Origin: Akkermansiaceae bacterium
GTDB taxonomy: Bacteria > Verrucomicrobiota > Verrucomicrobiia > Verrucomicrobiales > Akkermansiaceae
DNA: 46,592 nucleotides
Assembly (NCBI GenBank): GCA_947491475.1
Contig: CANLKN010000019.1
Coordinates: 1 to 46,592 of the forward strand
Direction: 5' to 3'
The notes beneath the pieces were generated by a model. It searched no databases. It had not been told where the DNA came from and was given only the letters and a program-made list of their open reading frames with translations. The position numbers and the translations under genes were made by a program. Positions 14,345-36,419 of this stretch are shown here, in pieces (the stretch's first letter is position 1; the number at the start of each line of letters is the position of its first letter).

Positions 14345-14372
14345 TAGCGGATAGAATATCAAACTATTGATC

Positions 14373-17300
14373 ATGAAATACCACATTATCCCCTTGTTCG
14401 GCAGCCTCGGTGCATTCCTGGTTGCCTTGTCCTCCATGTCGCATGGGGCTTCCCCTGCGGATGCGGTGCCTCCAGGATCCAACATCAATCTCTCCGCCGA
14501 TGTGGAGGTTCCCAAGAATTATCACATCATCGCTTACGATGACTGCGGCATTCCCGGTCGCCAGCCACACATGCGCGACTCGCTTGATTTCACTTTCCCG
14601 ACATCCTCGGTGACCGGAAGCGATGCGCAACGGAGTGTCGCCTTTTCCCTATCCGAGATGCGGGCGGTTTATGACAATCTCCCCGGAAACGCCCCGTATT
14701 TTTTGGAAATGACGGTTTCGGCCGATCCGAACATTCCCCGGCTCCAGAGCCTGCGGGCTGGCCCGGTATATCTTTACGAAAAGTGGACGCCGCCAACGGG
14801 AGTGCCGGCAACTTTCATTTTTAAAATTCCGCAGGAGGCGATCACGGACAAGCAGCTTGTTCTGACATTCACCAATCATGGGGGCCACAACTGCGTGGTT
14901 TCGGAGTTGAAGCTGTGGGGGCCTGAGCCTGCTCCGATGCGAATGAGCCTGCAATGGTCACCGGGAATGAGCGGAGAACTCGCCGGCCAGGTCATCAATT
15001 CCAACACCCTGCAGGGCGTTCCAAAAACCGGAGTCGCCGCCTTCGATGGCGAAAAGCTCCTCGCCCGCGCGGAGACCGACAAGGATGGAAAGTTCCTCTT
15101 CGACGGCAAGGCCTGGAGGGACGCGCCGACCCTGAAGCGGATCACCCTGAGGGCCGGTGCTCCCCCCCTCGAGCAGGCCGCGACGGTGGCACTGAGCCGC
15201 CTTTTCACGGGCAACCCCCTGCTTTACGAGATGCCGCAGACGGTCCCCGGCATCGCATCCTCGCCGCTTTCGCTGGACGGGACCTGGGAGGCCATCGTCG
15301 GCGACACCACACTCCTGTCGCCGGAAAAGCTGCCCGCCTCAGGCGGGAAGCCGGTGAAGATCCCCGGCCAGCTCGCCCAGCAAGGGTTCAAGCTGGAGCC
15401 GGACCAGTATGCCTATCTCAAGAAGCGGTTCCAAGTGCCTGCCGACTGGGCCGGGCACCCGGTTTCCCTGCGCTTTGAAGCGGTGCATGGCAACAGCCAA
15501 TACTGGGTGAACGGAAAATTCGCAGGAGCCAGCGAGCGGCTCTTCAACCCGGTTGACCTGAACATCACCGACCTCGTCACACCCGGCAAGGAGGCCGAGT
15601 TGGTGATCGCCATGAAACTGGAATCGGACGCCGAGCGCCTGGCCCATGCCTCCGCCTATGCCTCACACAGCCTGCTGGGAATTCCCCGTTCGGTTTTCGC
15701 CCGATGCCTGCCCGTGACCGCATTCCGAAACCTGGTGGTGAAGACCGTCCTCGATGCGCAGTATCGGGATGCAGTTCTTGAGGTCGGCTTCCAACTGGAA
15801 CCGTTCGGCGAGAAACCGAAGGCATCAGCCGCGCGGATTCGTCTGAAAGACTCTGGCGGCAAGACGGTGGCGGAGGTGACCCGACCGCTTGCGGAGTGGA
15901 AGACCGACGATGGAAGGTATCAGGCATCGCTGCCTGTAGCCGCTCCTGCGCTCTGGACGGCGGAAACTCCGAACCTCTACCGCATGGAAATCGAGGTTCT
16001 CGATGGCAACAAGCCCGTCGCCGCACTGGAGAGAAATGTTGGTTTCCGGGAGATTAAGGTTTCCGGCTCCCAACTCCTTGTCAACGGGCGCCCGGTCAAG
16101 CTTTTCGGAGCGAACCGTCATGAGATCGACCCGCTCGCCGGACGGGCCGATACCGTCCAATGGGCCGAGATTGATGCCAAGCTATTCAAGGAGGCGAATG
16201 TCAACTATGTGCGCACCTCGCATTACCCGCATACCCGAGAGTTTCTTGATGCCTGCGACCGGATCGGGCTCTACGTCGAAGCGGAGGGTCCGTTCTGTTG
16301 GACACGAGGCAAAGGCGAGGACAACCCCGCGCTTTTCCCGGTCTGGCTGGAAGCCACCGCCACCATGCTCGCCACCCAGCGGAACCATCCCTCGGTGATC
16401 ATCTGGTCGATCGCCAATGAATCCAACCCTGTGGAAAAAACCGGGCTGCTGGAAAATTACCGCAAGCTCAACGAGTGGGTGCTCGTCGCCGACCCTACCC
16501 GCCCGACCACGATCAACAACGAATGGAACAACAATGGCGGGCTCACCAGCATCGCCAACATCCACTACCCGCCGAACCTCTGGGAGGCGAACCCGGACCT
16601 CGCCGGCGAGACCCGCCCGGTCCTCATCGACGAGCACATGCACAACCATTGCTACAACGTGCAGGAGCTCGAGGAAGACCCGGGGATCAGCGAGGACTGG
16701 CCGCTCGGACGCCTGAGCTTCTGCCCGGCGAACCCCCAGGACCCGCTCTCGCCGGACTCCACCGTGAACCGCCTCTACAGCAACCCGCTGTTCCTCGGCG
16801 GCGCGATCTGGGCCGGCATCGATGAGGTTTTTCTCCTGCCCGGAGGCGAGGCCACCGGCTACGGCCCGTGGGGATTCGTGGACGTGTGGCGGCGGAAAAA
16901 ACCCGAGCACTGGCACACCCGGATGCTCTACTCGCCGGTCTTCATCCCCGCCCGCGAGGCAGCCTTCGCGACGGGCCAGCGCACGCTCGAAATTCCCGTC
17001 GAAAATCGCTTCGCATTCACCGCCCTCAACGACTGCAAAGTCCATTGGAGGCTCGGGGATGCGAAGGGCACGCTCAGCGGTCCGGAAATCGCGCCGGGCA
17101 AACAGGCTACCTGGAGTTTCCCCCTGCCGGAAAATACCACGCCGGGCTCGATGCTCGAACTCGACTTTGTCGCGCCGGATGGACGCCAATTCGCGGAATG
17201 GGGGCTGCGCCTCGGGAGCACAAACACCGATGTCATGGCCGCGCCATCATGGTCCGGCCCCGCAGCCATCAAGCAAAATGAAGACAGCTACGAAATCTCG

Positions 17301-18077
17301 GGCGCATCGTTTTCCTTCCGCCTGGATGAAAAAACCGGAAACATCGAGAGCCCGTCGTTCCCGCTCGTCGCGCTTCCGATCCTCCATGTCGCCCAGCGCG
17401 AGCTGCGCAGTTGGTTCGCACCCCAGGCACCGCCCTACCTCGAATTCCCGGACTCCTCCACCCGCAAAATCGAAAGCGTCACGGTCTCGGAAACTCCCGG
17501 CTTCACGCAACTCGTCGTCCGCGAAACGTATCAGGATTTTCAGGGCACTCTGACATGGAAACTCGACAAGGCCGGTCGTCAGGAATTCGCTCTAAATTAT
17601 TCATATTCCGGAGTGGCCCCGGTGCAGATATCCAAGCTCGGCTTGCGATGTGATCTGAAGCCTGGGTTTGATCAAATCGAATGGATTGCCCTTGGGCTCT
17701 GGCCGCGCTATCCCGACACTCACATCGGGAGAACCCACGGAACCGCCCAAGCCCGGAGCGGCGCGACCCAGGCGGTCAGCACCTCCGGCAAACACCTCGG
17801 GATTCCGCTCACGACGCCCGCCAATCTATGGGAACTGGATGAAAACGCCGCCGGCACCAAGGACTTCCGGGCCACAAAAAACCGCATCCTGCACGCCAGG
17901 CTCACGGGCTCGGCTGGAGCGTTGGAACTTTTTGCCAACGGCGACCGCGGGATCCGCCCGAAGCTCACCCCCGGGGGCACGCGAGCCTTCCTCACCCTCA
18001 CCCTGCCCGCGACGGACACGCTCAGCCCCGGACAAAAAATCGAAGGCTCCTTCGACGTCAGAATCACCCGCCCATGA
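14373..18077 (+). CDS. Secreted GH2 glycoside hydrolase with N-terminal accessory domains
   Basis: A 1234-residue exported GH2 enzyme, started at ATG 14373 (MKYHIIPLFGSLGAFLVALS, cleavage near SHGAS). The first 280 residues form accessory domains that I do not recognise with certainty; the second resembles a carboxypeptidase-regulatory-like Ig fold (GQVINSNTLQGVPKTG...). GH2 sandwich domains start near 300 (LSLDGTWEAIVG). The barrel shows GANRHEIDP, the acid/base Glu683 in SIANESNP and the nucleophile Glu754 in LIDEHMHNH, 71 residues apart as is normal. A long C-terminal beta-sandwich (about 960-1234) resembles the LacZ domain 5. Beta-galactosidase is the best guess, but other beta-glycosides are possible. 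The stop overlaps the GH106-like start (ATGA). Confidence 0.85.
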   Translation: MKYHIIPLFGSLGAFLVALSSMSHGASPADAVPPGSNINLSADVEVPKNYHIIAYDDCGIPGRQPHMRDSLDFTFPTSSVTGSDAQRSVAFSLSEMRAVYDNLPGNAPYFLEMTVSADPNIPRLQSLRAGPVYLYEKWTPPTGVPATFIFKIPQEAITDKQLVLTFTNHGGHNCVVSELKLWGPEPAPMRMSLQWSPGMSGELAGQVINSNTLQGVPKTGVAAFDGEKLLARAETDKDGKFLFDGKAWRDAPTLKRITLRAGAPPLEQAATVALSRLFTGNPLLYEMPQTVPGIASSPLSLDGTWEAIVGDTTLLSPEKLPASGGKPVKIPGQLAQQGFKLEPDQYAYLKKRFQVPADWAGHPVSLRFEAVHGNSQYWVNGKFAGASERLFNPVDLNITDLVTPGKEAELVIAMKLESDAERLAHASAYASHSLLGIPRSVFARCLPVTAFRNLVVKTVLDAQYRDAVLEVGFQLEPFGEKPKASAARIRLKDSGGKTVAEVTRPLAEWKTDDGRYQASLPVAAPALWTAETPNLYRMEIEVLDGNKPVAALERNVGFREIKVSGSQLLVNGRPVKLFGANRHEIDPLAGRADTVQWAEIDAKLFKEANVNYVRTSHYPHTREFLDACDRIGLYVEAEGPFCWTRGKGEDNPALFPVWLEATATMLATQRNHPSVIIWSIANESNPVEKTGLLENYRKLNEWVLVADPTRPTTINNEWNNNGGLTSIANIHYPPNLWEANPDLAGETRPVLIDEHMHNHCYNVQELEEDPGISEDWPLGRLSFCPANPQDPLSPDSTVNRLYSNPLFLGGAIWAGIDEVFLLPGGEATGYGPWGFVDVWRRKKPEHWHTRMLYSPVFIPAREAAFATGQRTLEIPVENRFAFTALNDCKVHWRLGDAKGTLSGPEIAPGKQATWSFPLPENTTPGSMLELDFVAPDGRQFAEWGLRLGSTNTDVMAAPSWSGPAAIKQNEDSYEISGASFSFRLDEKTGNIESPSFPLVALPILHVAQRELRSWFAPQAPPYLEFPDSSTRKIESVTVSETPGFTQLVVRETYQDFQGTLTWKLDKAGRQEFALNYSYSGVAPVQISKLGLRCDLKPGFDQIEWIALGLWPRYPDTHIGRTHGTAQARSGATQAVSTSGKHLGIPLTTPANLWELDENAAGTKDFRATKNRILHARLTGSAGALELFANGDRGIRPKLTPGGTRAFLTLTLPATDTLSPGQKIEGSFDVRITRP

Positions 18078-19966
18078 AAACGCCAGCTGATGATCTTGCC
18101 GCCGACTTCCGCCCGCTGGTGCGCTGGTGGTGGTTTGAGGATGCTGTCCCGACCGCAGAAGTGGAGGAGCAACTCGACTGGGTGGCGGCTATGGGCTTCG
18201 GCGGCGTGGAAGTGGCATGGCTCAACAGGAACACGGAAAACCACGGCGAGGCACCGGCGTTTCTAACACCCGCCTGGGCGGCGATGATGGCGCACGCGGC
18301 CCGCGCGGCCCGTGCAAGAGGCTTGCGCATGGATTTCACCTTTGGCAGCCAGTGGCCCTTCGGCGGGAATTTCGTGACGGAGGAGGACTCGACGCAGACA
18401 TGGAACGGCCCCTCGCGCTATTATTTGCAGTTCCATTGGAAAATGGAACCTGCCGGGGAACCACCGCGGGTCCTGAACCATCTCGACCGCGGCGCACTCC
18501 ACCGCTATGCGGCCACGATGGCGTCGGGACTCGGACCGGCCATCCGCGAAGCCGCCGCAGGAGCGACCGCGTTGTTTTGTGATTCATGGGAAGTGCCGAC
18601 CAGTCCACCGATGTGGTCGGAAAATTTCGCGGTGCGTTTCGAGAAAGAGTGCGGTTATGACATCACGCATTTGATGAACTATCTCGAATATCACACTCAC
18701 GCCCGCTACGATTACCGCAAGGTGCTCTCCAAGCTGGTGATCGAGGAATTTTACCGGCCCTTCACCGCCGAATGCCACGCGCTCGGGACCTTGTCGCGCT
18801 CGCAGTGCCATGGCGCTCCCTGCGACATCGTGGCTGCCTATGCCGCGACGGATATTCCCGAGACGGAGACGATTCTTTTCGACGCGCATTTCACCTCGTT
18901 CGCGGCCTCCGCCGGCGTATTGGCGGACAGGCAGATCATCTCTGCGGAGAGCTTCACCGCACTTTACGGGTTGGGCTGGCAAGCCGCACCGGGACACGCG
19001 GTGGAAGAGGCCGCCGATGTGAAACTGCTTGCCGACGCGATGTTCGCGCACGGCGTGAACCAGATCATCTGGCACGGCATGCCGCTCGGGAAAAACCGCT
19101 TTGGAGCGACCTGCCATGTCGCGCCGGATGGTGCGCTCGCCCCGCATCTGCCGGAGCTCAACCGTTATCTTGATGGGATGAGCGCCGCACTGCGCGAAGG
19201 TCGTCCCCGCACAGACGTCGCGGTTTATCTGCCGCTGGAAGACCAGTGGATGCGGCACCTGCTGCCGGATGAAATCATGCGTCCGAGCGCGCATTATCAC
19301 TGGGAACTTCAATACGTGCGTTTCCCGGAAGAGTTGCGCGGGTTCCAGCCTTGCTGGATCACCGGGGAATTCCTGCCGCGGTGCCGGGTGACGGATGGCA
19401 GGATCATTCATGACACCGCTTCCTTCGAGGCGCTCTGGCTGGATTGCGAATGGCTCGACCTGGGCAGCCTGCGCGAGCTCATACGCCTGGCAGAAGCAGG
19501 AGGACGGATCATGATGCGCCAATCACCACAGGAGCCGGGGTATGTTCGGCATGAGGAGTTTCCCACATTGATGGATCGTCTTGAGACCGCCGCGCGGGCC
19601 GGGGTGGGGGACTTGATCCCGCTCGTCACCGGCGATGATGTGCCCGAGTTCCGCTGCCGGATCATCGGAGAAACATCGCGCCTCTTTTTCGCCCATCCCG
19701 CGACCCGCCAGGTGACCTACCCGATGCGGCAAGGACAAGCCGCCGCGGCCGGACCCACACAACGTATGATTGTGCTGCACGTTGGCGGGCTCGCGATTCC
19801 CCTGACGCTCGACTTCGGCTGGAACGAATCGTTGCTGGTGGAAATCGACGGGCAAGGCGGGATCTCCATCCAGCCCTGCGCATGCGGCTTGCCGGTTCCG
19901 GACGACAGCGCGCCATTCCCGCGCGATCACCGCTACCCCGGCTACGTCAGACCGGTTCACTCCTGA
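18074..19966 (+). CDS. GH106-like alpha-L-rhamnosidase family protein
   Basis: A 630-residue protein beginning with the family-like FRPLVRWWWFEDAVPTAEVEE, a strong match in style to the Arg-Trp-Trp-Trp start of the GH106 alpha-L-rhamnosidases and their relatives. FCDSWEVP with Glu173, MDFTFGSQWPFGG and QIIWHGMPLG also fit that barrel. It is shorter than the 800-1100 residues I expect for GH106 and has no signal peptide, so it may be a cytoplasmic or reduced member. The last codons overlap the antisense glycosidase remnant ending at 19947, so its 3' end sits at a rearrangement scar and a lost C-terminal domain is possible. It starts inside the previous stop (ATGA). Family confidence is moderate; rhamnose specificity is inferred. 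Confidence 0.65.
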   Translation: MKTPADDLAADFRPLVRWWWFEDAVPTAEVEEQLDWVAAMGFGGVEVAWLNRNTENHGEAPAFLTPAWAAMMAHAARAARARGLRMDFTFGSQWPFGGNFVTEEDSTQTWNGPSRYYLQFHWKMEPAGEPPRVLNHLDRGALHRYAATMASGLGPAIREAAAGATALFCDSWEVPTSPPMWSENFAVRFEKECGYDITHLMNYLEYHTHARYDYRKVLSKLVIEEFYRPFTAECHALGTLSRSQCHGAPCDIVAAYAATDIPETETILFDAHFTSFAASAGVLADRQIISAESFTALYGLGWQAAPGHAVEEAADVKLLADAMFAHGVNQIIWHGMPLGKNRFGATCHVAPDGALAPHLPELNRYLDGMSAALREGRPRTDVAVYLPLEDQWMRHLLPDEIMRPSAHYHWELQYVRFPEELRGFQPCWITGEFLPRCRVTDGRIIHDTASFEALWLDCEWLDLGSLRELIRLAEAGGRIMMRQSPQEPGYVRHEEFPTLMDRLETAARAGVGDLIPLVTGDDVPEFRCRIIGETSRLFFAHPATRQVTYPMRQGQAAAAGPTQRMIVLHVGGLAIPLTLDFGWNESLLVEIDGQGGISIQPCACGLPVPDDSAPFPRDHRYPGYVRPVHS

Positions 19967-24843: not shown

Positions 24844-24889
24844 TGTCCGAAAAGCGAAATGCTCCCATCCCGTATCTTCGGGACTATGC
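24844..24889 (+). promoter_or_regulatory. Conserved upstream element B of the second GH36 gene
   Basis: Second copy of the element at 20389-20435, one base shorter. It keeps TGTCCGAA at the left, AGCGAAATG in the middle, the TCCCG-N6-CGGGA inverted repeat at 24868-24883 and CTATGC at the right. It begins 43 bases after the sulfatase stop and lies 92 bases before the GH36 start at 24982, so the second GH36 gene may have its own promoter within the cluster. The spacing to the gene differs from element A (34 bases), which argues that the block, not the leader, is conserved. Confidence 0.5.
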
Positions 24890-24981
24890 AAAGTTATGGT
24901 TCTGGAAAAGCATTCAGCAGGCCCCTCCCAACGGCTTTTGTGGATCCTCCAGTCAAAGCCAATCCCCATCATTCCATTCTT

Positions 24982-27519
24982 ATGCAGAAAATAAAATCAT
25001 CCTCTATCCATAAATCGGGAATTCGACTGTGTCTGATTGTCACCATGCTCGCCTATGGCGGCCACGTCATGGCCGCGCCCGAAGCCATCGACGCGACCGC
25101 GCGCTGGGCGGAACAGGCATTCTCGGGGAGCCCGGCCAAGGTGCAGGGAAACCAGTTGACCGTGGTCCACAACGACGATCCGGTTCTCTCACAGGTGAAG
25201 CTCAACCAGTCGGCGACCGGCAAGCCGTTGCGGCTGGCGGATAAGACCTACACCCGCGGATTTGGACTGAATGCGAAAGTCGTGCTGCACGTGGTGCTTG
25301 AAAAGCCCGCGCGGCGCTTGTTGGCGGACATCGGTGTGGACCGCAATGCGGACCGACAGGTCGCCTCGGTGCGGTTCCGTGTTTCTGTGGGTGGCAAAGA
25401 GCTGTTTGTCTCCGACGTCTTGCGGCCCGGCAGCCAGCAGAGCATCGACGTGCCTCTGGACGGCGCGAAGACGTTGGATCTCATCGTGGACGACGGTGGC
25501 GACGGGCGTGCTTGGGATCAGGCGAACTGGGGTGATCCGCGCATCGAGCTGGAAGATGGCACGACGCTGGCATTGGACGAACTGGCTGAACAGGGCGGCC
25601 CGGTTCCGGGAATCCCATTTTCATTTGTGTATGGCGGCAAGCCCTCGTCCGAGTTGCTGCCGAAATGGAAACGCGAAACCAAAGAGGACCAAGCGGACGC
25701 GACGCGCACCATCAAGACGCTGAGTTTCACCGATCCGGAAACCGGACTGGTCGTCAAAGCCATCGCCACGATCTACCGCGACACGCCGGGTGTGGATTGG
25801 ACCCTGTATTTTTCCAACAAGGGCTCGAAGCCCACGCCGATTCTCGAAAAAGTGCGCGCCGTGGATATCGCAATCATCCCGCCGCTTGGCACGCAGGTGA
25901 TGCTGAACCGCGTGCGGGGCTGCCACCACGGGGCTGCCTCATGGCAGCCGATCAAGCAGGCGGTCATGCCTGGCACGCCGGTTGCATTCGGCGCGGATGG
26001 GGGCCGCCCGGCAAAAGTTGACAGCCCGTTTTTCACTGTGAACTGGGCCAGTGGCGGTGTCATTACCGCCGTCGGTTGGTCCGGCCAGTGGAACGGCTCG
26101 GTGGTAACTGATCTGAACGCCCTGCGGATCGAGGCCGGCATGGAATTCCTGCACGTAAGTCTCCAGCCCGGAGAAAGCATCCGCAGCCCGCGCATCCTTC
26201 AGGTATTCTGGGAGGGCGGCGATCTCGACTGGGCGCACAACCAATTCCGCCACACGGTGTTCGCTCACATCATTCCGCAGCGCGACGGCAAGCCTGTCTT
26301 ACCGCCCATGGCGCATACGGGCACATCGTTTTATGAAGAGAATGCCACCGATGAAGCCGCCACGCTTTCGCATATCGCGTCGATGGACGGGCTTGGCTTC
26401 GAGGCATTCTGGCTCGATGCCTATTGGCACCGCGGTGGCTTCCCGGCGGGGATCGGCAACTATGGGTTTCCGCTTGATCGGGTGGGCGACCCACTGCGTT
26501 TTCCGCGCGGCTTGAAGCCCGTCACGGACGCTGTTCAGAAAGAGGGCCTCAAATTCATATTGTGGTTCGAACCCGAGCGAGTGGTCGCTGGCACGGCGAT
26601 TGACCGTGAGCACCCGGAATGGGTGCTGAAGCACGTCGCACCAAATGGAGGATTGTATGACGTGGGGAATCCGGACGCGCGGGAATTCATGACCCGCTAC
26701 CTCAAAGCCGCCGTCAAGGAGTATGGCATCGATATTCTGCGCTTCGACTACAACATCGACCCGCTTCCCTACTGGCAGGAAGCCAACCGCAAGAACCCGG
26801 AGCGTGTCGGCATTTCGGAAATCCGCTACGTCGAGGGACTCTATCAAATGTGGGATGAACTCCGCTCAGCATTCCCCAAACTCGACATCGACAACTGCGC
26901 AAGCGGCGGCATGCGCGTGGATCTGGAAACCGTTTCCCGCGCCATCACGTTGTGGCGCACCGATTACACCATCGATCCGCTTCTACGAAAGGACTACGAT
27001 GAGGCTGCGCTCCGCAACCAGGTTATGACCGCCGGACTGAACCGCTACCTGCCATTCAGCGTGAGCGGCCAGATGGGCTACAGCCCCTACCATTTCCGTA
27101 GCGGTTACAATGGCGGCATCGCCTTCTGCGAGGATACCAGGCCCGCTGATTATCCACGGGAGCAGCTCCGCGACGCGATCGCCGAGGGCAAACGCCTGCG
27201 GAAATACTATATGGGTGACTTCTATCCCCTGTCGGATGTCACCACCGATCCGCGCGATTGGACGGTGATGCAATACCATCTTCCCGAGACGAATGAAGGA
27301 GTTGTCATCGGATTCCGCAGGCACAACTCTCCCTTCACCGCCATCCAATGCGAGCTGAAGGGCATCGATCCAGCGGCCAACTACAAAGTCACCCGCTCGC
27401 TGGCGTCCAAGCAGGAGGCACCGTTCGAAATGAAAGGTGCCGATCTCCAGCGGCTGAGCCTGGAAATCCCGCTGATGCCCGGCTCTGTTATTTTGGAATA
27501 CCAGAAGTTCTCGTTATGA
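24982..27519 (+). CDS. Exported GH36 alpha-galactosidase with NPCBM domain (second paralogue)
   Basis: An 845-residue paralogue of the protein at 20469-23024, alike along its whole length including the signal peptide (here MQKIKSSSIHKSGIRLCLIV) and the NPCBM domain (KTYTRGFGLNAKVVLHV, VDDGGDGRAWDQANW). The nucleophile is Asp589 in LRFDYNIDPLPYW. The acid/base region reads LWRTDYTID, with Asp661 the best candidate. The longer frame from 24859 is rejected because it crosses the upstream element. The two GH36 paralogues flank the sulfatase and appear to have arisen by tandem duplication that included the upstream region. Codon use here is more GC-rich at third positions than in the first paralogue, so the duplication is not recent. 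The stop overlaps the next start (ATGA). Confidence 0.84.
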   Translation: MQKIKSSSIHKSGIRLCLIVTMLAYGGHVMAAPEAIDATARWAEQAFSGSPAKVQGNQLTVVHNDDPVLSQVKLNQSATGKPLRLADKTYTRGFGLNAKVVLHVVLEKPARRLLADIGVDRNADRQVASVRFRVSVGGKELFVSDVLRPGSQQSIDVPLDGAKTLDLIVDDGGDGRAWDQANWGDPRIELEDGTTLALDELAEQGGPVPGIPFSFVYGGKPSSELLPKWKRETKEDQADATRTIKTLSFTDPETGLVVKAIATIYRDTPGVDWTLYFSNKGSKPTPILEKVRAVDIAIIPPLGTQVMLNRVRGCHHGAASWQPIKQAVMPGTPVAFGADGGRPAKVDSPFFTVNWASGGVITAVGWSGQWNGSVVTDLNALRIEAGMEFLHVSLQPGESIRSPRILQVFWEGGDLDWAHNQFRHTVFAHIIPQRDGKPVLPPMAHTGTSFYEENATDEAATLSHIASMDGLGFEAFWLDAYWHRGGFPAGIGNYGFPLDRVGDPLRFPRGLKPVTDAVQKEGLKFILWFEPERVVAGTAIDREHPEWVLKHVAPNGGLYDVGNPDAREFMTRYLKAAVKEYGIDILRFDYNIDPLPYWQEANRKNPERVGISEIRYVEGLYQMWDELRSAFPKLDIDNCASGGMRVDLETVSRAITLWRTDYTIDPLLRKDYDEAALRNQVMTAGLNRYLPFSVSGQMGYSPYHFRSGYNGGIAFCEDTRPADYPREQLRDAIAEGKRLRKYYMGDFYPLSDVTTDPRDWTVMQYHLPETNEGVVIGFRRHNSPFTAIQCELKGIDPAANYKVTRSLASKQEAPFEMKGADLQRLSLEIPLMPGSVILEYQKFSL

Positions 27520-30000: not shown

Positions 30001-32778
30001 ATGAAAGGACAACAACACATAAAAATTGCCTTAACCAGTCTAGCCCTCCTCGCCACCACGATCTTCGGTGCGGCCATGCCGCCACAGTCGACATCCCTGC
30101 CGGTTCCCGGTGCGATTGACGTGATCGATCTCGCGTCCGATACGGAGTGGACGCTCCGGTTGGACGACGGTGCACCGCGGCCCATCAAGGTGCCGGGTGG
30201 TGGTTGGAATTCGGATCTGCAGAATCCCCCCATTCAGGTCATGCGGGAGGTAAAAGACTTCGTTCGATATGAACGGGAATTCACTCTACCCGAAAGTGCG
30301 GCTGGCAAGGCGGTGAGACTCCGCTTCGGTGCGGTCGCCCATGGTTGCGAGGTGTTTCTTGATGGGCAAAAAGTAGGGGAGCACCATGGGCCGCAGGTGG
30401 CTTTCGAAATGGATCTGACTGCCTTTGCGGCACCCGGTAAAATCCAAGCCTTGCAAGTGAAGGCGTATCACCGGCGGCACTATATTCCTTCAGGCGATAA
30501 GACCGCCGATGTCGCGGTAGGCTGGGACTTCCCGAATGGGGATGACGACGCTAGTGTGGCCGAGGCCAATGCATGGTGTCATGACTGGCACGGTCAATCG
30601 AAGGTTGCTTATGGCATCTGCCGCTCGGTGGATCTGGTCATCCTGCCTGCGGTGCATGTGACGGAAATGTTCGTGCGACCATCGGTGGCCAAGCAGGAGT
30701 TTTCCGCGGATGTCTGGGTTCGCAACACCACAGACACAAGGCGGACTTTCAATGTGGGCGGCGCGTTTTCTTCATGGAACCAGCGCGAGTGGAAATATCC
30801 CACTGTGCCACAGGCAGTGGTTGCGATTCCGCCTCAATCGACGGTGAAGGTGACTCTCGGGCCTGTTCCATGGATCGCCGGACGAGAAAGCTACTGGTGG
30901 CCTAACATTCCATTCCGCGAGGATTACCTAGCGCAGCTACATTTCCTAAATCTCGAAATTAAGGATGGCGAAATCCTGTTGCAACGGTATCCGCAGCGCT
31001 TTGGTTTCGTCGAACATTCAGAAGGAAGTCATTACTACCAAGTCAATGGCGTGAGGGTGAATGGATTCAGCGATGCAAGCGCGGAAGGGCAAGTCAGTCA
31101 TTTTGATTCCTACAGCTCACCCGCGTGGTTGTCGCCGACCGGTCCGGGCACCGGTGCGCCGGAGTCATGGCGGAGATACATGCGGGTCGGCATCAATACG
31201 AATCGCCTTCATTGTTCGCCGCCGACCGAATATATGATGCAGGCGGCGGACGAGGTGGGGTTCCTGCTGATTCCCGAAGCCCCGATCTGGGGCAATAATT
31301 TGAGCCGCTACAGCGTGCGATACACTCCGCAAACCTATCACGATCTCGCCCGCGCCTGCCGGAACCATCCGAGCACCGCACGATACTCGCTCACCAATGA
31401 AGTGCGCGAGCCACGCTCCGAGTTGAAGGAAAAATGGCCGTGGCGCGCCGCCATCGACGACCTGCGTGAGGTGGATGACATTCACCCGCTGGTTTACGAA
31501 CTTCACCTTCAGTCCTCGGGAAAAATCGATGGGATCAAGGGCGGACATGCGTTCATCATGGAACATTACACCGACATCCATGAAAAGATCGGAGCAGACA
31601 AAGGCATCCGCGGGATGGGTGAGCATTTCTGGGGACGCAACAGCATGGGCGAATTCGCCGTGGGTGCCCGGACCTTGCGGGTGAACGGCTGGTGCTATCT
31701 CTCGGGCTGGAGTTGGTTGAACTACTGGCCGAATTTCCTTCAAGGCATGAACCATGACCTTCACGCCTGGAAGCCGCAGAACCATGCTGACCGCCGTGAC
31801 GGAATTGACGGATGGAACTCTCCGATCGTGGAATTCACCCGCCGCAGCCTCGATCCCTATTTGGTCCAGGATCTAGATATTCTCAAACAGAACCCAGGCG
31901 TTCCCATCGAACTCTCCGGCGGTGGCATTCAATGGCCCTATCAGAATCCTGTTTGCATCGCGGGAAGACCGGTGGAACGAAGCATCGCGGTCTTTAATGG
32001 CGGACTCGAAGGCAACCGTCTCACGCTTTCATGGGAACTGCATTGGGATCAACCGGATGGCCCACAGGCCGCAGCGGGAGGGAAGGTCGAGTGCTCGATT
32101 GAGCCTGGGTTCCATGCCACACCGAAGATCACCTTTGCTGCTCCGATGTTGGAAGGTGGCAGGGAAAAGCGGAACCTCTATCTGGTTCTGCAATCCACCA
32201 AGGACGGTCGGGTGGTTTTCCGGGATGACACGCTCTGCTTCAATGTTCTCGCAAAGGAGAGTGCCAGTTCCGCACGCCTGGTCGCCCTTGCCGGACCCGC
32301 CGATGGAAACTGGCGGGGCAAGCTCGGCATGGAAGGACATCTCCTGGTCGGCCGGGAAAACGAAATGCCGGGCTTCGCCAGCTTTACTTGGAAGAGCGGC
32401 AGTGTCTGGGTCTATGAAAAACAGACGAGCGATGTCCGCGCCCTGGAGTTCTTTCAAAACGAAACGCCCCCCACCAACAGGGATCGCATCGCCGCAGCAC
32501 AATATGGCAATGAGGTCTCATACGAAATGGATGCGGGACCCCATCCACGACGGATGACGATCTATCAATTGGATTGGGACCATCAGGACCGCGAGCAGGT
32601 CGTGGAAATTCATGACTCAATCGATGGTCGTCTGTTGGACGAGCAGAAAGTGTCGAACTTTGAGGACGGCAAGTATTTGTGCTGGGATGTGCAGGGAAAT
32701 ATCCGTGTCACCATTCGCAAATCCAAGGGACCCAACGCCGTCTTGTCCGGCCTTTTCCTCGATCCCCACACCCAATGA
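30001..32778 (+). CDS. Exported GH2 glycoside hydrolase
   Basis: A 925-residue exported GH2 protein (MKGQQHIKIALTSLALLATT, cleavage near FGAAM). It has the jelly-roll domain (VRLRFGAVAHGCEVFLDGQK), an Ig-like domain and a TIM barrel. The acid/base is Glu467 in SLTNEVREP and the nucleophile Glu541 in GMGEHFWG, 74 residues apart. The GH2 Asn-Arg-His motif before the barrel is replaced by INTNRLHCSPPTEYMM, so the active-site entry differs from LacZ types and it need not be a beta-galactosidase; beta-mannosidase, beta-glucuronidase or another activity is possible. A C-terminal region of about 280 residues lacks a recognised domain. It starts 17 bases after the GH36 gene and its stop overlaps the next start (ATGA). 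Confidence 0.78.
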   Translation: MKGQQHIKIALTSLALLATTIFGAAMPPQSTSLPVPGAIDVIDLASDTEWTLRLDDGAPRPIKVPGGGWNSDLQNPPIQVMREVKDFVRYEREFTLPESAAGKAVRLRFGAVAHGCEVFLDGQKVGEHHGPQVAFEMDLTAFAAPGKIQALQVKAYHRRHYIPSGDKTADVAVGWDFPNGDDDASVAEANAWCHDWHGQSKVAYGICRSVDLVILPAVHVTEMFVRPSVAKQEFSADVWVRNTTDTRRTFNVGGAFSSWNQREWKYPTVPQAVVAIPPQSTVKVTLGPVPWIAGRESYWWPNIPFREDYLAQLHFLNLEIKDGEILLQRYPQRFGFVEHSEGSHYYQVNGVRVNGFSDASAEGQVSHFDSYSSPAWLSPTGPGTGAPESWRRYMRVGINTNRLHCSPPTEYMMQAADEVGFLLIPEAPIWGNNLSRYSVRYTPQTYHDLARACRNHPSTARYSLTNEVREPRSELKEKWPWRAAIDDLREVDDIHPLVYELHLQSSGKIDGIKGGHAFIMEHYTDIHEKIGADKGIRGMGEHFWGRNSMGEFAVGARTLRVNGWCYLSGWSWLNYWPNFLQGMNHDLHAWKPQNHADRRDGIDGWNSPIVEFTRRSLDPYLVQDLDILKQNPGVPIELSGGGIQWPYQNPVCIAGRPVERSIAVFNGGLEGNRLTLSWELHWDQPDGPQAAAGGKVECSIEPGFHATPKITFAAPMLEGGREKRNLYLVLQSTKDGRVVFRDDTLCFNVLAKESASSARLVALAGPADGNWRGKLGMEGHLLVGRENEMPGFASFTWKSGSVWVYEKQTSDVRALEFFQNETPPTNRDRIAAAQYGNEVSYEMDAGPHPRRMTIYQLDWDHQDREQVVEIHDSIDGRLLDEQKVSNFEDGKYLCWDVQGNIRVTIRKSKGPNAVLSGLFLDPHTQ

Positions 32779-35700
32779 ACTCGTCTGACACCCGTTTCTA
32801 TATTATGATCATAAATTACATTGCACCATTCGTCGGTGTGGCGGCCCTCTTTCTGCCCCTACCGCTCTCCGCCGCGCCTCACGTCGTTTCGGATCCCGCT
32901 ACTTACATCGATGGAAAAAACCCCGAGGAGAGGTTCGCTGGCATTGCGGCGTATTGCGCGGCGCCGATCATCGGACAGGTGATCTCTCTTGACAGCAAGG
33001 ACGCTTGGGTGGTCTCAGCCGATCCTGCGAACGTCGGCAAAACGGAGAAATGGTTCACCTCTCCGAGGCCGGATGCGAAGCCCATCAGGGTTCCGGGGAT
33101 GATGCAGGAGACCCTGGGCGAATATCACGGAGTCGCGTGGTATTGGCGGACGGTCAACATCGCGGAGAACCCTCATCAGAACGGCAGATACATCATCCGT
33201 TTCTGGAGCATCGACTACTACGCCGACATCTACGTCAACGGCCAGTTCGTGGGCAACCATGAGGCCGCCGACACGATGTTCGAGCTGGACATCACCTCAG
33301 CAGTCAAACCGAACGCAGAGAACCTGATAGCGGTGCGGGTGATCAACCCTACGGACAAGGACATCGAGGGTTTTGTGATCGGCCAAACCCCGGGCAGGAA
33401 CCGGATAGCCAACTGGAGTCAAGGCTTTAGCTACAACGCTGGCGGGATTATGGACTCAGCAGAGATCCTCGTCACGGCTCCCGTCCGAGTCGAAGATCTC
33501 TACGTCAAACCGAACGCGAAGAGCGGAGTCATCGAGGTGGAGGTTAACGTGCGCAACGCGCTCGACAAGGCCGTGAAAGGTCATGTCGTCGCTACGGTCT
33601 CTGCAGCCGCGAGCGGCGAGACGGTTCACCTCAAGTCGGTCGCGCAGGACTTCAAGCCGGGAGATACCCTGGTGAAGGTGAGCGTGCCAGTCAATGACTT
33701 CAGGCTTTGGGACGTGAACGACCCCTACCTATACCGAGTGACAGCCAGGGTGGGCCACGGCGGATCGAACTCCGTGGATGAGAAGTCCACCAAGTGCGGA
33801 TTCCGGGATTTCCGCTTTGAGGATGGATACTTCAGGCTCAACGGAAAGCGCATCTTCATCAAGAGCGCCCACTTCGGCGGTGAAGTGCCGGCAACGTCGA
33901 TGGCGCCGTTTGATCCGGGCCTCGTTCGGAAAGACTTCCTCAATCTGAAGCTGATGGGATTCAATACGGCCCGGTGCATCGCGGGACTCGGCCGGAGATC
34001 GATCATGGACCTCGCCGACGAGATCGGGCTGATGGTCTATGATGAAAGTTATGCGTCATGGGGCCTGGTAGCATCGCCGAAGTTGGCCGAGCGGTGGAAG
34101 CAGGCCACGGAGGGGATGATCCGGCGCGACCGCAACCATCCCTGCGTCATTATGTGGGGTTTGCTGAACGAGACGAACTATGGCCCGGTGTTTATGCAGG
34201 CAGTCAACTCGCTCGGCTTTGTGAAAGCCATCGATGACACCAGAGTCGTGATGCTGAACAGCGGACGGTGGGACAACCAGATGGATGAAGGCCAGGCTGA
34301 GGCCGGCAAGATGCTCTTGCCGCAGGCGTGGGCCACCGGTCGGGGCTTCGTGGTCCCGTTTGTTGCGTGCAACCAGAGCGGGTCCCCGATCAATACAGAC
34401 GGCACGCTCTACCCCGCTGGGATGATTGCCATGCACGTCGGTCCCAGCGGCGAACCGGCCGCCCTCAGGTTCACTGCTCCCGCCGATGGTGAATACCAGG
34501 TAAAGGGAGCCTTCAAAGGCATAGCCGGGCCGCCCGCGACAGGTCCCTTCGCGACGGCTGCGATTTACGTCGTCGCCAATGGTGAGAAGGTGTTCTCGGA
34601 CAGGATCAACTGCGGTGGTAAGGGCAACGAGACCGCTTACGAGGGTAAGGTTGCGCTGAAGAAGGGCCAGACCGTTGAGATCCTCTCCGGGTCGGGCGAT
34701 GGAGCCTTCAAAAGCGACACGACGGGGATCGACTTCAAGATGACCGGTCCTGACGGGAAGGTCTATGACGCCGCGTCGAGCTGGTCGGTCGCGAACAAGA
34801 ACCCAAACGGAGTTTGGACTTATGGTTATGTCACGGAGAACAGCCAGGACGTGGGCAAGTTTGCCAAGTTCGATGGCGCATTCGACGGCAAAAGGCAGAG
34901 CATTGGGAGCCTCAGCAACCCAGGGTCCAAGGATTGGGAGGACGTGCTCGCGGACAAGCATCCCTACCAGACAAGTCTTAACGCGGAAGTGATCAACACC
35001 CTGCGGACCATCGGTGGAGGCACGAATCCGCTCTTCATATCGGAATACGGCTTCGGCAGCGCGAACAACCTGTTCCATTTGCTCGGGCACTACGATCAAC
35101 TGGACATCAAATACGTCTTCGACCGTGCCGCGCTCAACAATCTCTATGCCGGCTTCAGCGGCGACTGGAACCGCTGGAATCTCGCCGACACGTTCGGCAA
35201 TATGGAGAACTACTTCAGGCAGTGCATCGCTCTGTCGGCCGAAGGGCGGCTGATCGGAACGAGCGCGATCCGCTCCAACCCCAATGTCGTCGCGCACAGC
35301 CTGACGGCCTGCCACGATACGGTTCTCGCCGCCGAGGGCCTGATCACTTCGTTCCGAGAGCCCAAGCCGGGAATGTCAGACGCAATGACCGACGCCTGGG
35401 CACCACTGCGGTTTTCCGTGTTTGTGGAGCCGGTGCAGGTCTACAAGGGTGGAAGCGTCCATGTCGAAGCGGTGCTTGTGAACGAAGACGTGCTCAAGCC
35501 CGGCAAGTATCCGGTCCGGGTGCAGGTTATCGGACCTGATGGCTACCGGGCGCTCGATACAACGTTCGAGGTTGAGATAACCGCCATAACCAAGAGGCCG
35601 GAGCCTCCGTTCGCGCAGCTCGTATTCAAGCAGGACGTGAAGATCGACGGTCCCGCAGGCGAGTATGCGTTCTACGCTTTCTTCGACAAGGGCGCGGCGG

Positions 35701-36419
35701 CGGAAGGCGGAGAGTATAAGTTCTGGGTCGCTGACCCGGCGGCGATGCCGGCCGTGGCGTCCACCATCACGCTCTGGGGAGACGACAAGAATGTCGCGGC
35801 ATGGCTGGCGTCGAGAGGAATCAAGACGAAGCCGTTTGATGCGAACCAGACCGAGCGCGAAGTTATCCTGGTCGGCTGTGCGGCGGGTGCCGATTTCACC
35901 GAGCTTGCGAAGCATATTGCGAGAGGGTCGGCCGCCGTATTCCTGAGTCCGGAAGTCTTTGGCAAAGGAGGGAACCCCACGGCTATGCTTCCGCTGAAGA
36001 ACAAAGGCGGCATAGTAATTTCGAGCCCCTTTCTCTACCCGAACAACGACTGGGCGAAGAACCATCCCGCCTTCGCCGGTCTGCCGAAAGGCGTGATGGA
36101 CTACCAGTTCTACCGTGAGATACTTGGGAAATCATTCTGGTCCGGTCAGGACATTCCGGACGAGATCGTAAGCGGGATGATGAACACATCGTTAGGCTAC
36201 GTGTCTGGACTCACGGTCTGCGCCTACAGATTCGGTGAGGGCAAGTTCATGCTGAGCTCTCTGCAGCTACGGGACACCCTGTCGGGCACGACGTCTCATC
36301 CCGTTGCTGAGCGGATACTCCGAAACATGCTGGTGTGGGCGGAGTCTGGGACGAGCGCTCCGCTCGCCCCTCTCCCTGCGGATTTCGATGCCCAACTCAA
36401 AGTGATCGGATACGAATGA
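32775..36419 (+). CDS. Exported GH2-type enzyme with a domain inserted between its catalytic residues
   Basis: A 1214-residue protein started at ATG 32775 in the ATGA overlap; an internal ATG at 32805 (MIINYIAPFVGVAALFLPL) would also give a signal peptide. The GH2 jelly-roll (WYWRTVNIAE, SIDYYADIYVNGQFVG) and Ig-like domains are clear. The acid/base is Glu466 in GLLNETNYGP and the nucleophile Glu757 in LFISEYGFGS. They are 291 residues apart, against 67-74 in the other GH2 proteins of this window. The extra 220 residues (about 500-725) hold a beta-sandwich-like segment (LRFTAPADGEYQVKGAFKG) and NPNGVWTYGYV at 676-686. The C-terminal 370 residues hold Ig-like repeats and a region like a GATase-type fold (FMLSSLQLRDTLSG). 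Codons AGG and ATA are used more than in neighbours. Confidence 0.78.
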   Translation: MNSSDTRFYIMIINYIAPFVGVAALFLPLPLSAAPHVVSDPATYIDGKNPEERFAGIAAYCAAPIIGQVISLDSKDAWVVSADPANVGKTEKWFTSPRPDAKPIRVPGMMQETLGEYHGVAWYWRTVNIAENPHQNGRYIIRFWSIDYYADIYVNGQFVGNHEAADTMFELDITSAVKPNAENLIAVRVINPTDKDIEGFVIGQTPGRNRIANWSQGFSYNAGGIMDSAEILVTAPVRVEDLYVKPNAKSGVIEVEVNVRNALDKAVKGHVVATVSAAASGETVHLKSVAQDFKPGDTLVKVSVPVNDFRLWDVNDPYLYRVTARVGHGGSNSVDEKSTKCGFRDFRFEDGYFRLNGKRIFIKSAHFGGEVPATSMAPFDPGLVRKDFLNLKLMGFNTARCIAGLGRRSIMDLADEIGLMVYDESYASWGLVASPKLAERWKQATEGMIRRDRNHPCVIMWGLLNETNYGPVFMQAVNSLGFVKAIDDTRVVMLNSGRWDNQMDEGQAEAGKMLLPQAWATGRGFVVPFVACNQSGSPINTDGTLYPAGMIAMHVGPSGEPAALRFTAPADGEYQVKGAFKGIAGPPATGPFATAAIYVVANGEKVFSDRINCGGKGNETAYEGKVALKKGQTVEILSGSGDGAFKSDTTGIDFKMTGPDGKVYDAASSWSVANKNPNGVWTYGYVTENSQDVGKFAKFDGAFDGKRQSIGSLSNPGSKDWEDVLADKHPYQTSLNAEVINTLRTIGGGTNPLFISEYGFGSANNLFHLLGHYDQLDIKYVFDRAALNNLYAGFSGDWNRWNLADTFGNMENYFRQCIALSAEGRLIGTSAIRSNPNVVAHSLTACHDTVLAAEGLITSFREPKPGMSDAMTDAWAPLRFSVFVEPVQVYKGGSVHVEAVLVNEDVLKPGKYPVRVQVIGPDGYRALDTTFEVEITAITKRPEPPFAQLVFKQDVKIDGPAGEYAFYAFFDKGAAAEGGEYKFWVADPAAMPAVASTITLWGDDKNVAAWLASRGIKTKPFDANQTEREVILVGCAAGADFTELAKHIARGSAAVFLSPEVFGKGGNPTAMLPLKNKGGIVISSPFLYPNNDWAKNHPAFAGLPKGVMDYQFYREILGKSFWSGQDIPDEIVSGMMNTSLGYVSGLTVCAYRFGEGKFMLSSLQLRDTLSGTTSHPVAERILRNMLVWAESGTSAPLAPLPADFDAQLKVIGYE

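Follow-up and report, generated by a model that had tools for sequence, protein, structure and literature searches.

A circularly permuted NPNG domain in the catalytic barrel of a predicted GH2 glycosidase

An Akkermansiaceae bacterium encodes, at positions 32775-36419 of a 46,592-nucleotide stretch of contig CANLKN010000019.1 (the window, meaning the whole stretch analysed), a protein of glycosidase family GH2 that we call W. We hold it likely, at a probability of roughly 0.7, that W is a GH2 enzyme with a complete, circularly permuted copy of a beta-sandwich, the NPNG domain, in the loop between strands 5 and 6 of its barrel, that this copy is of tandem or circle origin, and that it serves as a recognition module at the rim of the active site. 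The claims with the strongest basis, drawn from many sequences, are that such inserts share one site, one permuted order and one domain family. Domain insertion and circular permutation are each known, mainly as rare, single and ancient events.

Protein W and its insert

Translation of the open reading frame (ORF) bore out the particulars that an earlier note, made from the letters of the window, had listed for this protein: its coordinates, Glu466 and Glu757 as the catalytic pair, their distance of 291 residues, and, within the insert, LRFTAPADGEYQVKGAFKG at residue 564 and NPNGVWTYG at residue 676. The features of W are as follows.

32775..36419, + strand: gene for the GH2 enzyme W; ATG at 32775, 1214 residues plus stop codon (coding to 36416)
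33006..33356, + strand: GH2 N-terminal sugar-binding domain, residues 78-194 (PF02837, E 1.7e-12)
33483..33806, + strand: GH2 Ig-like domain, residues 237-344 (PF00703, E 5.7e-14)
33816..34274, + strand: TIM barrel part 1, residues 348-500, with its NSGRWD end after barrel strand 5 (PF02836 over 348-504; predicted strand at 491-496)
34170..34172, + strand: Glu466 (LLNETNYGP), expected acid/base; all 100 aligned rows without a gap at this column have Glu
34275..34904, + strand: inserted, circularly permuted NPNG domain, residues 501-710 (absent from insert-less homologues; structure prediction; permutation test)
34317..34754, + strand: C-part (W..P.V..N, HPG..RWTAP, DTTG), residues 515-660, second in normal order (C-part profile E 5e-42; the profile includes W)
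34755..34895, + strand: N-part (NPNGVWTYG), residues 661-707, first in normal order (N-part profile E 1e-12; the profile includes W)
34905..35384, + strand: TIM barrel part 2, residues 711 to about 870, resuming at GSLSNPGS..W (alignment; predicted strands and helices)
35043..35045, + strand: Glu757 (FISEYGFGS), expected nucleophile; all 100 aligned rows without a gap at this column have Glu
35385..36416, + strand: C-terminal region, with one or more predicted beta domains and then an alpha/beta domain (no Pfam family reaches its cut-off)

Pfam places PF02837, PF00703 and PF02836 on W above cut-off and in this order, the barrel match ending at residue 504, and Glu466 and Glu757 each stand directly after a predicted strand (barrel strands 4 and 7). 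A model of residues 61-1214 built with 36 aligned sequences reached a mean predicted local distance difference test score (pLDDT) of 89.3 and a predicted template-modelling score (pTM) of 0.85, and the 50 Foldseek matches listed for it are GH2-type enzymes. Among the best of these, exo-glycosidases of the beta-galactosidase, beta-glucuronidase and beta-mannosidase kind (8u01, 6byc, 8dhl) have the same domain order, barrel and catalytic pair as W and differ from it in that W has an insert between barrel strands 5 and 6. On sequence grounds W is a GH2 glycosidase with an intact catalytic frame and predicted activity.

Genome contigs were scanned with a six-sequence alignment, yielding 239 candidate stretches and 201 relatives, of which the best 80 (78 distinct loci) were taken; their record titles name Planctomycetota, Verrucomicrobia, Victivallales, Kiritimatiellaeota, Armatimonadetes, Hydrogenedentota, Omnitrophota and Acidobacteria. 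Together with earlier homologues, and with five duplicates dropped, these loci form an alignment of 102 rows, two of which are fragments short of the insert site. An insert of at least 180 residues stands at the site of W in 78 of the 102 rows, a count from a set chosen by similarity to W and not a natural frequency; L173, which has another topology, and L170, which meets a contig end, were not counted. Searches of the class and the phylum with W had likewise returned five proteins that match through the insert and others that skip it. In this alignment the two catalytic residues are 85-132 residues apart in 20 insert-less rows and 270-310 apart in 79 rows with an insert (L173 included), and the spacing of 291 in W arises because about 210 residues (501-710) sit between barrel strands 5 and 6. 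The invariant glutamates and the ordinary insert-less spacing uphold the earlier placement of the catalytic pair. The note had also given spacings of 67, 71 and 74 for three other GH2 proteins of the window; Pfam found two (14367-18074 and 30001-32775), with spacings of 71 and 74, and the protein with 67 was not found among the window ORFs scanned.

In the alignment the insert is flanked by (N)SGRWD before and GSLSNPGS..W after, and in the whole model of W it lies, by our own reading of strand order, between barrel strand 5 (491-496) and strand 6 (726-728). Its loop would lie on the catalytic face, as follows from its position after a barrel strand. Predicted alone (189 residues, 39 sequences), the insert is compact and all-beta, with pLDDT 93.1 and pTM 0.91, which supports the extra beta-sandwich-like domain that the earlier note had proposed inside the barrel. 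In the profile searches that it had suggested for the insert, relatives were found with profiles of our own, and no Pfam or NCBIfam family was found above cut-off with the insert alone. Pfam matched nothing in the insert even up to E 10, the sole sub-threshold entry in these family searches was GW_glycos_SH3 (E 0.13, 12.6 bits against a cut-off of 50), and sequence searches of the PDB with the insert and with the insert alignment returned chance-level matches (best E 0.33 and 1.2). NCBIfam searches with five normal-order proteins and one more insert found only PEP-CTERM models, on L178. On present sequence evidence the NPNG domain is a family for which no curated Pfam or NCBIfam model was found, occurring in Verrucomicrobiota, Planctomycetota and other phyla.

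The last 220 or so residues of W (window 35760-36416) are predicted as an alpha/beta domain without a Pfam family above cut-off, and this part is covered by the alignment in most homologues.

Order of the two domain parts

The NPxGxWxYG, HPG..RWTAP and DxT blocks that mark the NPNG domain all occur in the single inserted domain of W. In the normal domain the N-part precedes the C-part; in W the C-part comes first, and the insert is therefore classed as a circular permutant. Two profiles, one for the C-part and one for the N-part, were derived from the inserts and searched against the ORFs of every collected locus (E < 0.05). Both parts were found in 121 distinct ORFs: 85 with the order C-N, 28 with N-C, three with N-C-N-C, one with N-C-N-C-N-C and four with C-N-C. 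Among the last four, L261 and L265 hold two separate normal copies by the normal-order profile, and L173 and L249 are further permutants; normal order occurs in 34 ORFs in total. The 85 C-N frames comprise 77 rows of the GH2 alignment, four more GH2 proteins by Pfam (L237, L238 twice, L239), three GH36-type proteins (L137, L235, L236) and one truncated frame with no Pfam match (L240).

From 29 normal copies we made a normal-order profile that includes none of the inserts, although the insert profiles had been used to locate these copies and set their limits. Against this profile every one of the 78 inserts gained score when un-permuted, from a median of 127.0 bits as found to 167.8, and the best of three random cuts per insert gave a median of 122.4. 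Median profile coverage over the same inserts rose from 142 to 189 positions, and the insert of W itself scored 128.1 bits un-permuted and 94.6 as found. The motif order is reversed (HPG..TAP before NPxGxWxYG) in all 58 inserts in which both motifs match their regular expressions, the remaining 20 having one or neither under these strict expressions. Permuted and normal copies have the signature residues NPxGxWxYG, P..V..N, HPG, RWTAP, GxG and DxT in common, and the two forms differ in part order and in E560 and N612, which are found mainly in permuted copies (93% of 81 vs 17% and 21% of 29 normal ones). The gap between C-part and N-part is one residue in 63 of the 85 permuted ORFs, W included, and one residue also separates a C-part match from the next N-part match in a tandem normal pair (L242). 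A unit cut out of register would show such a gap, so the gap seen in the permuted ORFs fits this origin. By sequence comparison the insert is a complete circularly permuted copy of the NPNG domain.

Planctomycete, verrucomicrobial and PEP-CTERM proteins carry the normal form, either terminally, as tandem copies, in small proteins, or beside CotH, LamG, RCC1 and GH36-type regions. Five small proteins among the 34 with normal order have a PEP-CTERM signal (Pfam), and the kinship in reversed order with a planctomycete and PEP-CTERM domain that the earlier note had proposed is thereby supported. Among the 33 normal-order proteins scanned with Pfam (L246 was left out), none has the domain within a stretch matched as a glycosidase barrel; for many of them Pfam gives no match of any kind, and a host fold could go unrecognised there. 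The normal copy of L246 (G694:C246, about 19192-19611) lies inside an open frame of 14,725 residues.

Searched with W, the window's own genome gave W itself, GH2 proteins of greater distance and, at 36-47% identity, a tandem array on contig C14 with pieces on contigs C167 and C79. The alignments of the array and these pieces to W cover only the stretches before about residue 509 and after about residue 711. The in-barrel insert is absent from all seven long paralogues in this genome (the six C14 array proteins and the C167 protein, as translated; the C79 match is a fragment). When the insert itself was searched, four N-terminal domains of array proteins (A1, A3, A5, A6) matched, with E 1.1e-6 to 0.0015. 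The N-terminal domain in these proteins has NPNGPWFYG, followed by HPG, WVAP and DxxGL; that of A5 has diverged and matches by the C-part profile alone. A LamG-type domain (PF13385) precedes GH2 in six of the seven long paralogues, A5 being without it. The paralogues, six in tandem at G000 C14:3-29691 (L031, L032, L035) and one at C167:1176-5033 (L033), show shuffled N-terminal modules: the NPNG domain alone, LamG alone, or both.

Further hosts, history and gene surroundings

The same permuted domain occurs in a second host family. At locus L137 the GH2 gene is immediately preceded by a gene for a melibiase/GH36-type protein (PF02065 in two pieces, PF16874) with the permuted domain in its barrel, and L235 and L236, which come from two further genomes, have the same arrangement; the insert breaks the Melibiase match near profile position 150. 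A tree of the domain groups the three GH36-type inserts in a single clade (99*) placed among GH2 inserts, with support of 87 on the branch that joins them to three of these, and a transfer of the permuted domain from GH2 to GH36 is likely though not certain. A GH36-type gene stands next to a W-type gene in 9 of 78 loci, and in 6 of the 46 that span 11 kb or more, a modest association, and GH2 and GH36-type host genes are neighbours in some clusters. The three melibiase-type proteins of the window are relatives that have no permuted insert and have an NPCBM domain instead.

Two proteins of one planctomycete genome (G692) show other cut points. In L173 (1872-5462), assigned to GH2 by its match to W rather than by a Pfam scan, the domain is opened before the FDLMV strand and inserted slightly downstream, after the SNPGS stretch; in L249, a melibiase-type protein, it is opened before the DYYVIQN strand, and in each of the two the pieces sum to one domain unit. 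In the domain tree both group with copies in normal order, most of which belong to that genome too, and the permuted copies of the first type all lie on the other side of a 99* branch, which suggests separate origins for these two cut points. G692 is a 3.8-Mb metagenome-assembled genome (Planctomycetota UR.bin216; L106, L110, L153, L173) in which the domain is matched 37 times and takes normal, tandem and three permuted forms. The GH2 proteins L238 (2-3310) and L239 (1083-5111) have about 150 extra residues before the permuted C-part, with a weak Pfam PA14 match in L238, and this stretch is possibly an insertion within the insertion.

The history of the insert was followed on a phylogeny of 100 rows, computed on the GH2 part after removal of the insert with FastTree, the least careful of the available tree methods. 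The insert label needs seven changes on this tree, at least six of them on starred branches, a count that does not separate gain from loss. L173, the other permutant, is nested among insert carriers and L162, with an insert, among non-carriers; like the insert-less homologues discussed below, they make a nested pattern that points to repeated loss, replacement and perhaps gain at the site. The closest relative of W is L097 (77% identity), titled Victivallales, and among 36 other genomes of the same genus none matched W better than 1.2e-27, which together hint at horizontal transfer of W.

The window as a whole reads as a glycan-utilisation cluster, with GH29-, GH78-, GH106-type, sulfatase and GH43 proteins, three GH36-type proteins with NPCBM, three GH2 proteins (W included), an MFS_2 transporter, AraC-type and two-component regulators, and further enzymes that may take part in the catabolism of deoxy-sugars. 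The ATG of W overlaps the stop codon of the upstream GH2 gene (window 32775-32778), which suggests translational coupling. A melibiase-type gene inside the own-genome GH2 array (L031:14683-17190) is 82% identical to the window protein at 24859-27516, and part of the window cluster therefore has a close copy elsewhere in the genome.

Origin, function and meaning

In W a complete NPNG beta-sandwich follows immediately on the conserved SGRWD motif, in the loop that leads from barrel strand 5 to strand 6, with the normal C-terminal part first, the N-terminal part second, and a linker as short as that between tandem normal copies. For its origin we propose that a single unit, either taken out of register from an array of tandem copies or released as a circle one unit long, became part of a barrel loop in an ancestral GH2 enzyme; the permuted unit may later have passed to GH36-type barrels and been lost or replaced in some GH2 lineages. 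Held at the active-site rim, the domain would select or orient part of a polysaccharide substrate. Several observations weigh against this account. The link to GH36 is based on three proteins, and the two further cut points on one protein each, both from one metagenome-assembled genome; L171, L172 and L174 lack the insert yet are nested among carriers in the GH2-part tree, so the insert is not indispensable. The fold matches are middling, carbohydrate binding leans on a weak structural resemblance, and contact between insert and active site is read solely from the position of the loop.

A bolder extension, which we put forward tentatively and think rather improbable as it stands, would make the NPNG domain a plug-in module that enters catalytic barrels repeatedly, each time as one unit with a varying cut point, through one-unit DNA circles from tandem arrays that integrate in frame. 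It would comprise at least three permutants and at least four insertions in two unrelated glycosidase families, with the same recognition domain beside both active sites.

Recognition itself was judged from fold likeness. Foldseek with the insert returned first Cea1A (E 3.8e-5, TM-score 0.34), then Cry1Aa and several CBM35 structures; VIA-align gave Z 8.4 for a GOLD domain, 8.0-8.3 for CBM51, 7.0 for CBM36 and 6.6 for CBM61, values of which those below 8 may, according to the tool, reflect merely a common arrangement. CBM51 2vmg aligned with Z 8.2 and a root-mean-square deviation of 2.7 over 109 of 189 residues. None of CBM51/NPCBM (PF08305), CBM35, CBM36 and CBM61 matches the insert in sequence, Pfam finding no PF08305 in it up to E 10, unlike in the three neighbouring window proteins with NPCBM, and no PA14 match was found by Pfam in W or its insert. 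By its fold neighbours, and by analogy with the PA14 domain inserted in the GH3 enzyme KmBglI, the insert is most likely a carbohydrate-recognition module at the active-site rim. It might instead be purely structural, stabilising the loop or mediating oligomerisation without a part in substrate recognition, as the existence of nested homologues without the insert would allow, and as would the inserted PA14 domains of RmBgl3B and DesR, for which no substrate interaction was found in model or structure according to the available text of PMC6987092. We rate such a role as possible and on balance improbable: many homologues retain the insert in a loop that comes after a barrel strand, and members of the NPNG family have entered the barrels of two unrelated glycosidase families.

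The earlier note had offered a circular permutation or a second, partial copy, and full permutation is favoured, one C-part and one N-part making up about one normal domain. An insert composed of the end of one copy and the beginning of the next, two fragments that might not fold with each other, would show the same order if a tandem array were cut at both ends, and proteins with two or three normal copies do exist (L242, L247, L248, L258, L261). The pieces nonetheless sum to one unit without overlap in W, L173 and L249, the 78 inserts measure 188-228 residues as against 174-216 in the 29 normal copies (as cut here), prediction of the 189-residue piece gives a single rigid domain (pTM 0.91), and the signature residues of both halves are conserved together, all of which makes partial copies quite unlikely. 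That the extra length is a local assembly artefact or an ordinary GH2 loop could not be excluded from one window, and is refuted, beyond almost any doubt, by independent assemblies of many organisms that have the same insert at this position and by insert-less homologues with ordinary spacing.

Each half of the permuted insertion envisaged for W has precedents. CBM60 is a circular permutation of CBM36, a carbohydrate-binding beta-sandwich; like the insert of W it is a natural permutation, and unlike it CBM60 and CBM36 are ordinary appended modules outside a catalytic barrel, with a single cut point. A permuted CBM21 is the subject of PMC3511584. PA14 domains are inserted in the GH3 beta-glucosidases RmBgl3B, KmBglI and DesR, and that of KmBglI is reported to be involved in substrate interaction (PMC6987092); both the enzyme family and the domain family differ from those of W, and circular permutation goes unmentioned in the available text of that paper. 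In searches of open-licence papers, the titles and opening lines of abstracts that came up held no description of a circularly permuted domain inside a glycosidase barrel, and with the inserted PA14 of GH3 and the permuted CBMs as its precedents the recurrent permuted insertion looks new.

In the NPNG domain insertion and permutation appear together in one family, with three cut points and two host enzyme families, with presence and absence of the insert among close homologues, and with normal-order and tandem copies in the same genomes. With this variety of cut points and hosts, and with normal copies at hand, the origin of permutants and of inserted recognition domains therefore becomes directly testable, and for enzyme design these proteins would offer natural examples of a module plugged into a catalytic barrel loop.

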